NCBI RefSeq assembly: GCF_038049935.1
Contig: NZ_CP145886.1
Coordinates: forward strand, 1,930,501-1,994,500
Source: Rossellomorea sp. y25
Lineage (GTDB): Bacteria; Bacillota; Bacilli; Bacillales; Bacillaceae_B
DNA: 64,000 nucleotides
Direction of reading: 5' to 3'
The position numbers were made by a program, and so were the translations under genes. The notes beneath the pieces were generated by a model. The model was not told the DNA's origin, ran no database searches, and saw only the letters and a list, made by a program, of their open reading frames with translations. The stretch's first letter is position 1; each line of letters begins with the position of its first letter. Below are positions 12,799 through 50,203 of this stretch, in pieces.

Positions 12799-12879
12799 AT
12801 GCGCTTTTATACAATTAAATTACCAAAATTCTTGGGTGGACTTGTGAGGGCGATGTTAGGAACGTTTAAAAAAGAATAA
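12799..12879 (+). CDS. spoVM: Stage V sporulation protein M (26 aa coat-anchoring peptide)
   Basis: A 26-codon gene starting at ATG 12799 after GGGGAGGGAC. The peptide begins MRFYTIKLPKFLGG and continues VRAMLGTFKKE, differing from B. subtilis SpoVM (MKFYTIKLPKFLGG...) at only a few positions. SpoVM is an amphipathic helix that recognises the positive curvature of the forespore membrane and recruits the SpoIVA coat ATPase. The conserved Pro9 that shapes the helix is present. Its location, thiN-spoVM-rpmB, is the same as in B. subtilis. Expression is expected in the mother cell (sigma-E); I see no confident sigma-E promoter. Confidence 0.95.
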   Translation: MRFYTIKLPKFLGGLVRAMLGTFKKE

Positions 12880-12888
12880 ATAGTTTGT

Positions 12889-12919
12889 TGGAGATGGCTT
12901 TAGTGCCATCTTCTTTTTT
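12889..12919 (+). terminator. Terminator after spoVM
   Basis: Stem AGATGGC / GCCATCT around a TTTAGT loop, followed by TCTTTTTTG. It starts about ten bases after the spoVM stop. Confidence 0.88.
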
Positions 12920-13053
12920 GTTTATGGAAGAAGTGAGGTGGTTTTTAGAAAAATGAGAGCGTAATTGTTATTTAAGGACAGGGAAATGTTGATGAGAGCT
13001 TTCAATAGTGTGCTGGAAGAGTATTTTTGGCTGTGTAGAGTCCTCCATTGGGG

Positions 13054-13158
13054 TAAACTTGTGCCACTTTCAAGCAAACTTGTGCCACTTGTTGGGTTTG
13101 TTGCGCCACTTTCACACAAACTTGTGCCACTTTTGGAGTTTGTTGCGCCAAATTGTGA
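13054..13158. repeat. 21-bp minisatellite (five units)
   Basis: Five imperfect 21-bp units start at about 13054, 13075, 13096, 13117 and 13138. Two unit types alternate: AAACTTGTGCCACTT and TTTGTTGCGCCACTT. Because 21 is a multiple of three, both strands are open; the minus strand would encode heptads such as SGTSLLE and SGATNPT. I do not regard these as genes: there is no ribosome-binding site or homology I recognise, and the tract runs straight into the structured repeat array. Confidence 0.85.
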
Positions 13159-13176
13159 ACAGTCGTGTTCCTGCCC

Positions 13177-13710
13177 CAGGCCGAGCCCTTTCCGCTTTTC
13201 TGCGATGTCCAGCTCCAGGGGCTTGAGGCTCGAGGTCATAAGTCAAACTAACCAAAAAGGCAAAAAGCGCCTTTCCGGTTAGTTCGCCTTATGCTTGTCG
13301 CCTCAGGCCGAGCCCCTTCCGCTTTTCTGCGATGTCCAGCTCCAGGGGCTTGAGGCTCGAGGTCATAAGTCAAACTAACCAAAAAGGCAAAAAGCGCCTT
13401 TCCGGTTAGTTCGCCTTATGCTTGTCGCCTCAGGCCGAGCCCCTTCCGCTTTTCTGCGATGTCCAGCTCCAGGGGCTTGAGGCTCGAGGTCATAAGTCAA
13501 ACTAACCAAAAAGGCAAAAAGCGCCTTTCCGGTTAGTTCGCCTTATGCTTGTCGCCTCAGGCCGAGCCCCTTCCGCTTTTCTATATGTCCAGCTCCGGCG
13601 GCTAGTCCCTCGAGGTCACAACTGAAAAATCCCATAAGGCAAAAAGCGCCTTTTGGGATTTCCCCGTTGTGCTTGTCAGGCCTACTCAAGCCGCCTCCGC
13701 TTTTCTGCCT
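13177..13710. repeat. Tandem array of a ~120-nt structured intergenic repeat
   Basis: A truncated 3' tail (13177-13200) is followed by full copies at about 13207, 13334 and 13461 (period 127 bp, nearly identical) and a divergent copy at 13587-13707. Each copy starts CCAGCTCC and ends TCCGCTTTTCT. Each can fold into one long hairpin: in the second copy AGGGGCT 13344 with AGCCCCT 13438, TGAGGC 13351 with GCCTCA 13427, CATAAG 13364 with CTTATG 13415, CTAACC 13375 with GGTTAG 13404, AAAGGC 13383 with GCCTTT 13396. The divergent copy keeps the pairing with other bases (GGCGGCT/AGCCGCC, CACAAC/GTTGTG, AATCCC/GGGATT). A related copy lies at 50036-50203. I cannot name the family. Confidence 0.92.
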
Positions 13711-13747
13711 GTAAAGTATTTTTTCTTGAAAGGTTTTAATTGTAGTA

Positions 13748-13776
13748 TTGCATTCTAGAAAGTTGTGTGATAAATT
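13748..13776 (+). promoter_or_regulatory. Candidate sigma-A promoter of rpmB
   Basis: TTGCAT (13748-13753), 17-base spacer, TAAATT (13771-13776). It lies just after the repeat array and ~80 bases before the rpmB start. Inferred from matches to the sigma-A consensus only. Confidence 0.5.
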
Positions 13777-13857
13777 ATTAAAGTATCTTTATGATAATAA
13801 GCGAAATGTGGAACTGAAATTAACTTCAGCTTCTTGTTAGTGAGGAGGGAATATATT

Positions 13858-14046
13858 ATGGCAAAACAATGCGTAGTAACAGGCCGTAAAGCTAGCTCAG
13901 GTAACGCTCGCTCTCACGCAATGAATGCGAACAAGCGTACTTGGGGTGCAAACCTGCAAAAAGTTCGAATTCTTGTAGACGGAAAGCCTAAGAAAGTATG
14001 GGTTTCTGCAAGAGCGTTGAAATCTGGTAAAGTTGAACGCGTATAA
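13858..14046 (+). CDS. rpmB: 50S ribosomal protein L28
   Basis: 62-residue ribosomal protein L28 (bL28). Shows [32 protein letters not shown] and the C-terminal [13 protein letters not shown]. It has a single cysteine, so it is the zinc-free form. ATG 13858 follows GAGGAGGGA; this start gives the family N-terminus. A single-gene unit: the repeat island lies upstream and a terminator follows 15 bases after the stop. Confidence 0.97.
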
Positions 14047-49991: not shown

Positions 49992-50026
49992 GAAAAGCTG
50001 TTCCCAAATGGGGAACAGCTTTTTTA
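49992..50026 (+). terminator. Terminator after codY
   Basis: AAAGCTGTTCCC pairs perfectly with GGGAACAGCTTT around AAATG, followed by TTTTATTTG. Confidence 0.93.
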
Positions 50027-50035
50027 TTTGGTTTC

Positions 50036-50203
50036 CCTTATGCTTGTCGCCTCTAAGCAAAGTCCCTCCGCTTTTGTGTCATCCAGCTCCGGGACTTAGA
50101 GGCTCGAGGTCATAAGTCAAGTCCACCAAAAAGGCAATGAGCGCCTTTCCGGTGGCCTTGGCTTATGCTTGTCGCCTCTAAGCAAAGTCCCTCCGCTTTT
50201 GTG
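50036..50203. repeat. Second locus of the structured intergenic repeat
   Basis: A truncated 3' half (50037-50076) is followed by a full copy (50082-50200), period 125 bp. It shares with the 13.2-kb array CCAGCTCC, GGCTCGAGGTCATAAGTC, AAAAAGGCAA-GAGCGCCTTTCCGG, CTTATGCTTGTCGCCT and CCGCTTTT. Arms differ but still pair: GGGACTT 50091 with AAGTCCC 50185, AGAGG 50098 with CCTCT 50175, and a 5-nt bulge at the same place (AAGCA). Confidence 0.9.

Follow-up and report, generated by a model that had tools for sequence, protein, structure and literature searches.

An intergenic hairpin repeat family of Bacillales, and its tandem array between a spoVM-like gene and rpmB in Rossellomorea sp. y25

Results

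The array between the spoVM-like gene and rpmB

Within the 64,000-nucleotide stretch of the Rossellomorea sp. y25 genome analysed here (the window), four full copies of a hairpin-forming repeat occupy the gap between two genes which, following the names given in the initial annotation, we take to be spoVM-like and rpmB (Table 1). They are preceded by a remnant, which is left-truncated like the copies at many other arrays of the genome. Tandem Repeats Finder gave a period of 127 with 3.8 copies and a 94% match at 13173-13653, and the initial annotation had described three near-identical 127-bp units followed by a divergent fourth. The array is real, but each unit is itself about 118-123 bp long and is set off from the next by a short spacer, mostly of 4-6 bp, which varies between arrays. 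Similarly, the one-base difference reported among the units exists (GAGCCCT against GAGCCCC) but it sits in the remnant, and copies 1-3 are identical across their 123 bp. Copy 4 differs from copy 1 in helices P1, P3 and P4 and has the same main loops. It is clear from the sequence that, as had been claimed, three helices are changed on both arms between the identical copies and the fourth, while a 5-nt bulge and the GGCAAAAAGCGCC tip are constant.

Table 1. Features of the spoVM-rpmB gap and the other repeat copies of the window.
Feature	Position in window	Strand	Basis	Genome position
spoVM-like gene, left of array; anchor	12799..12879	+	sequence	
Terminator-like site after spoVM-like gene	12890..12923	+	consensus terminator scan	
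Truncated copy remnant, only right (plus) end = sense 5' part	about 13170..13200	-	sequence	
Full copy 1, type I	13206..13328	- (sense = minus)	profile and covariance-model matches, folding	
Full copy 2, identical to copy 1	13333..13455	-	covariance model	
Full copy 3, identical to copy 1	13460..13582	-	covariance model	
Full copy 4, type II, 121 bp, divergent	13586..13706	-	covariance model, folding	
Conserved host region upstream of rpmB (TGTAAAGTATTTTTTCTTGAAAGG...), abuts array	13710..13859	+	comparison with congeners	
rpmB (ribosomal protein L28); anchor	13860..14046	+	ORF	
Truncated copy preceding second window locus	50003..50076	-		1980503-1980576
Further full copy	50080..50202	-		1980580-1980702

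The host region upstream of rpmB is also found in congeners without a detected repeat copy. Its first part, TGTAAAGTATTTTTTCTTGAAAGGTTTTAATTGTAGTATTGCATT (window 13710-13755), is strongly conserved in congeners, including the copy-less L089 and L090, whose version begins TGTCAAG or CGTCAAG and has a CAAG...CTTG inverted repeat inside; it may be a control site of rpmB. Directly left of the array, at window 13055-13150, are short tandem repeats of 21 bp (AAACTTGTGCCACTTTCA...), and other short repeats, such as AATAAGCGGAATTTTTCCGG, are present in the same gap of some congeners. Between the units of the rpmB array of L082 there is a unit that has the shared outer ends (TGTCCAGCTCC...ACTTCCGCTTTTC) and a quite different interior hairpin, with a similar one in L084; this suggests that there may be a wider superfamily defined by its ends.

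Copies in the host genome and across the order

Searched with a covariance model built from 32 copies, the 4.63-Mb genome has 110 matches at E<=0.1, of which 103 reach E<=1.5e-11. A profile search of the stretches around these matches gave 125 full or truncated copies, 101 of them full, in 67 clusters with several subfamilies among them. In each of the multi-copy clusters (27/27) all copies have a single orientation. The left (sense 3') part is missing, with the copy starting at model column 46 or later, in 20/125 copies, and the right end in 3/125 profile matches, two of which are internal deletions that retain the right end. Mosaic copies, with two arms from different subfamilies, also occur, and unmatched P2 arms persist. 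The best pair of units at distant sites is 98.4% identical; dispersal is mostly not recent, because the median best identity of simple copies to another site is 89%.

Rfam 15 gave no match to the array in a scan of the window, the only match being L19_leader, elsewhere in the window; at E<=1, five host-genome loci matched only mir-26, far below its gathering threshold and by chance. An orientation rule set by the replication strand was rejected, as co-orientation, judged by eye with an assumed origin and terminus, was no more than would be expected if the repeats follow genes. Copies of the repeat also lie, in two distinct placements, inside another and larger hairpin repeat (GTTGATTTCCGCTCCAGG...CCGCTCCAATCAAC), of which insert-free versions exist too. 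This compound repeat forms 19 clusters in the host genome (e.g. 293465, 1090017, 3091638 and 541520, 903610, 2296191).

At E<=1e-6 copies were found in 118/159 sampled genomes of the order and in 63/86 genera, and none at that threshold in the other 41 genomes. Copies were also found in 25/25 genomes of the host's genus and in 38/41 genomes of a smaller survey. The counts per genome are lower bounds (22 candidates per genome were scored in the 159-genome survey and 87 in the smaller one); copy number is uneven, being high in some genomes and low in others. Among the matches listed are Planococcus, Cytobacillus, Neobacillus, Metabacillus, Fictibacillus, Jeotgalibacillus, Lysinibacillus, Gottfriedia, Lederbergia, Siminovitchia, Sutcliffiella, Heyndrickxia and Litchfieldia, and the best named matches among these listed are at 92-94%, R. 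aquimaris contigs included. The repeat is a non-coding, old hairpin family of Bacillales, present at about 67 sites in the host genome. The initial annotation had supposed that such sequences are common in intergenic regions of Bacillaceae and belong to no named family; within the limits of the searches, both suppositions are supported by the many related genomes that carry copies and with the lack of an Rfam 15 match or a published description.

The fold and its sense strand

The fold of the minus strand, which is here called the sense strand, is a hairpin of about 118 nt. It has an outer AGC/GCU clamp, a GGA/GGA internal loop, a 7-bp helix, the 5-nt bulge and a 6-bp helix; more distally there is an asymmetric internal loop, GACAAG opposite ACCUCGA, between helices P2 and P3, and the apical part is a long helix in which G.U pairs are conserved. 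Folding into a long hairpin, as had been proposed, was upheld for copies 1 and 4, which on either strand beat 200/200 dinucleotide shuffles (z -5.2 to -7.0).

The functional fold had been drawn on the plus strand, and this did not hold. The minus strand folds more strongly: type I gives -61.9 kcal/mol on the minus strand and -54.2 on the plus strand, and type II -55.3 and -48.9 respectively. Furthermore, the A.C mismatches conserved on the plus strand are G.U pairs on the minus strand, where the apical part becomes a single long helix. In 150 ungapped copies, 87 losses of Watson-Crick pairing on the minus strand gave G.U and 37 gave A.C (P=8e-6), the latter count being near the mean per transversion mismatch type (31). 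The G.U pairs at sense positions 44-84, 53-75 and 54-74 are present in 117, 106 and 103 of the 150 sequences, and pair 42-86 is purine-purine (A.G or G.A) in 94/150. Given the stronger energy and the excess of G.U over A.C, the minus strand is the one whose fold evolution keeps. This polarity falls short of proving an RNA, because G.T wobble also occurs in DNA.

Covariation was tested by our own approximation of R-scape, in which substitutions were shuffled along a FastTree tree and APC-corrected G statistics were compared with those of 60 null alignments, so that the smallest possible E is 0.0083. Copies of other lengths, 68 of the initial 231 unique ones, were excluded, among them type II copies such as window copy 4; the input was ungapped 123-nt copies only, 209 unique ones being reduced to 150 at 95% identity. 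The highest seven of the 7260 column pairs all fall within the hairpin structure. Eight column pairs had E<0.05, seven of them among the 41 pairs of the structure and the eighth a neighbour within helix P2; the remaining 34/41 structure pairs are above this cut-off, many of them because they vary so little. A separate alignment of 48 sequences combined 24 from the host genome with 24 taken at named loci in several genera. Standard pairs fill 95.2% of its 1920 cells, compared with 76.9% after shuffling and 32-52% with partners slid. Both-sided change is seen at 29/40 pairs, and the weakest pairs, 53-75 and 54-74, are unpaired in 11 and 12 of the 48 sequences.

Two marks of a structured cis-acting RNA were thus found, covariation beyond phylogeny on our tree-based null and strand-specific tolerance of G.U in the 150 copies. 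The selection on structure that had been proposed from the array is supported by the tree-null test together with the shuffle and slide controls on the 48 sequences, and the covariance-model search and covariation test that the initial annotation had recommended gave significant covariation. Judging from these alignments, the hairpin structure is preserved by evolution.

The internal loop

In the 48-sequence alignment the loop between P2 and P3 is invariant save for the first A of its 3' side, the 24 named loci having been retrieved by a pattern that contains the loop. In 20 copies from 12 genomes of nine other families, GACAAGC is present in 20/20 and ACCTCGA in 19/20 and the surrounding helices differ; these copies are the top-scoring matches of a covariance model that itself contains the loop. 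In the host genome each exact loop string is found in 89/101 full copies and is missing from 12/101. The pattern used for the named loci fixed the loop letters; of at least 80 loci listed, 62 were searched by the model, which gave 125 matches, 115 of them used further, and in the 70/115 that fit the pattern loop conservation is by construction. Outside the pattern, 45 named copies have GACAAGC exactly in 35 cases and ACCTCGA in 28 (10 and 17 without). On this sequence evidence the loop is one that persists across families while its helices change.

Placement next to stop codons

The distance from the hairpin to the stop codon was determined for ORFs of 80 aa or more whose end lies no further than 150 nt away; for the host genome, the non-compound loci were used. 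On the sense side a stop lies within 6 nt of the hairpin at 15/20 host, 21/28 named and 6/10 further loci, as against 1/24, 2/27 and 0/5 on the other side. The corresponding probabilities are 9e-7 (host) and 2.9e-7 (named) by Fisher's test and P=0.044 for the 20 further loci; these values are optimistic because the locus sets are partly orthologous. L199, L200, L201 and L226 share a gene with host loci, L211/L264 and L239/L268 share one with each other, and L329 has the same stop distance as L268, so the sets are not independent. With an ORF cut-off of 150 aa the figures are 12/14 against 0/17 (host) and 17/20 against 0/17 (named), and the contrast holds at 100 aa too.

In most sense-side genes, from many genera, the sense end falls between -5 and +5 nt relative to the stop codon, and several TAG stops take their last base from the element (distance -1 or -2). 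Named by their C-terminal sequences, the proteins abutted in this way are presumably GroEL- and AtpG-like in other genera and PepT- and Lpd-like in the host's genus. The 6-nt rule is broken at 5/20 host, 7/28 named and 4/10 further sense-side loci, and 0/4 compound copies follow it. A qualifying sense-side gene is present at just 20/48 non-compound host loci. The 28/48 without one include the window array, whose sense side has the conserved region upstream of rpmB instead of a gene end. Since its sense strand faces away from both the spoVM-like gene and rpmB, the window array may be a passenger; alternatively, it may be expressed from a putative antisense promoter. It could also be that stop-codon placement in general reflects an insertion preference or the loss of spacer DNA rather than function.

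Change in the arrays and candidate mobilisers

Both anchor genes were found in 25 congeners, of which 21 have one to three whole or truncated copies in the spoVM-rpmB gap, where the host genome has four; of the remaining 4/25, L081 and L086 retain a remnant resembling the right end, and none is seen in L089 and L090. In a 400 kb comparison at least one copy is at the matching place for 14/18 host sites in one relative (G042) and for 12/15 comparable sites in another (G010), with differing unit numbers. The initial annotation had offered an RNA or a mobile hairpin element; the structure is indeed kept, but the compared sites are mostly shared between species and the number of tandem units varies.

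The spacers between units include CTTAT, GTTTC, ATTGT, CGTCT, CGATA and others. Transposition with a 5-bp target duplication, considered from the spacers at 203381, 59357 and 3672569, was rejected, as tandem duplication can account for the spacers. At host position 3052762, set beside G010, the spacer consists of the first bases of the right flank and the last bases of the left one, which meet at a short homology; at the rpmB locus of L077, L080 and L083 it equals the start of the right flank. CTTTTC repeats stand on both sides of a site that has no copy in G042, which is consistent with a slippage deletion between short direct repeats. Among the orthologous sites compared, none showed a clean insertion opposite an empty one. 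With respect to the terminal inverted repeats and target-site duplication that mark a MITE, spacer repeats exist, and slippage at short homologies would account for the sites that are shorter or empty; no ORF-bearing relative with matching ends came to light in the loci that were read. From these joints, the tandem units look like products of local duplication at short homologies.

The host genome has two Y1 transposase ORFs that we take to be RAYT-like, one of 212 aa (L315, G000:C1 near 4390635-4390970) and one of 187 aa (L316, near 4038571-4038897). Beside them are palindrome families of their own, of GAGGTCCGTCCCTC type at the first and GTGCCTGGCAC type at the second, shorter than the 118-123 bp repeat. 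RAYT was rejected as the mobiliser: its genes carry these palindromes, there are 0 repeat-model matches at L315-L317, and the covariance model found no repeat copy within about 1.5 kb either side of the RAYT-like genes. Y1 gave no match at E<=1e-5 in G102, G106, G115, G118 and G141 despite at least 22 copies in each. A group II intron RT was likewise rejected, with no match at E<=1e-5 in G021, G022 and G023, again each with at least 22 copies. By these sequence comparisons RAYT and group II RT are poor candidates for the machinery of the repeat.

Discussion

ERIC repeats take hairpin form. In the available part of the source they are about 127 bp, intergenic and co-transcribed with their neighbours, and they are reported to destabilise upstream transcripts depending on orientation, with the ribosome involved (PMC2229807). 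The present family resembles ERIC, IRU and RU-1 in size and intergenic position, the comparison being one of descriptions and not of sequence; unlike ERIC of enterobacteria it has an asymmetric conserved loop, tandem arrays and a sense-side stop within 6 nt. The bcr1-bcr18 elements of the B. cereus group are, in the sections of the papers available, also intergenic, with bcr1 present in tens to more than 100 copies and often in UTRs or operons (PMC3446304, PMC6542083), and bcr3 correlates with mRNA half-life (PMC3446304). The first BCR element is described as confined to B. cereus s.l., and mobility in the group as tied to TTTAT motifs (PMC3446304, PMC6542083). Set against these partial descriptions, our family differs in that it spans the order and its spacers show no TTTAT rule.

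The MRSC-65-2 motif, as far as the available text describes it, is a single long covarying stem with dozens of copies per genome in diverse phyla and a conserved UYCCGG repeat (PMC11109978). The long covarying stem and the many copies are alike, by description only; TTCCGG, however, is present in most repeat copies of the host's genus and absent from many copies of other genera, which sets the family apart from the motif as there described. REP palindromes are given in the accessible part of their source as 20-40 bp with a GTAG or CGTC tag (PMC3733652). They too are intergenic and palindromic, and the host genome has the two RAYT-like genes, but the repeat unit is 118-123 bp, has by inspection no GTAG/CGTC end tag of the kind there described, and does not flank the RAYT-like genes, which other palindromes do. 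The literature was searched by sequence strings and topic and no description of the family was found; coverage was partial, so unpublished status is not established. Intergenic palindromic repeats are known as a kind, and the sense-strand stop placement and the conserved loop are new, if both hold.

The reading that we prefer, with a probability of about one half from the analyses above, is that of an ERIC- or bcr1-like hairpin repeat that would act in 3' UTRs or intercistronic RNA. At the stop-flush sites the hairpin would become the first part of the 3' UTR of the gene or of the intercistronic RNA, and there it would act on mRNA processing or stability, much as ERIC does in enterobacteria; a candidate protein that binds the internal loop possibly mediates the effect. 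Within a site, copies would multiply by duplication at short homologies, as the joints suggest.

Alternatively, and less probably, the repeat may be a selfish, MITE-like DNA hairpin, recognised as folded single-stranded DNA by a putative transposase or recombinase, with any effect on mRNA incidental. The 67 clusters and several subfamilies, the near-identical units at distant sites, the copies embedded in the second repeat and the high copy number of some genomes beside the low number of others would all fit such an element, and G.T wobble is allowed in single-stranded DNA too. Against it, there is no clean insertion opposite an empty site among those compared, the empty site in G042 fits a slippage deletion, and the spacers that resemble target duplications are explicable as duplication joints. 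Furthermore, the RAYT-like genes have palindromes of their own, genomes with at least 22 copies are without a Y1 or group II RT match, and the median best identity of 89% between sites points to dispersal that is mostly not recent.

It is improbable that the element is a transcription terminator module for the gene that enters its sense strand, which would let that gene lose its own terminator. Stop codons do adjoin the element, and an apical hairpin with a T-rich tail is present inside the sense strand at 8/15 flush loci compared with 2/15 on the other strand, but the tails are weak (e.g. TTTGACTT), a consensus scan found no minus-strand terminator in the window array, and 10/15 flush loci have another minus-strand terminator-like site past the array. 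Termination at the apex would, moreover, leave half of the conserved hairpin untranscribed. Template switching between the arms (quasi-palindrome correction), with no selection on the fold, would account for entire helix blocks switching together and for the 276 inferred single-branch double changes from Watson-Crick to Watson-Crick against 87 to G.U, but is very improbable, since correction of this kind would erase mismatches, and what is seen is retention of the internal loops, of the G.U pairs and of the purine-purine pair 42-86, together with a strand-specific excess of G.U over A.C.

Returning to the hairpin as an element of 3' UTRs or intercistronic RNA, a narrower and rather doubtful version is that the element is a 3'-UTR RNA positioned by the stop codon. 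If this were true, the hairpin must touch the terminating ribosome, or else its spread inserts copies exactly at translation stops, and recognition would be through the conserved internal loop. The asymmetry between G.U and A.C shows how the strand of a hairpin can be settled. A repeat that matches nothing in Rfam, is present at up to about 100 places in a genome across Bacillales and in one orientation begins at stop codons could influence the 3' ends and the operon balance of many housekeeping genes.
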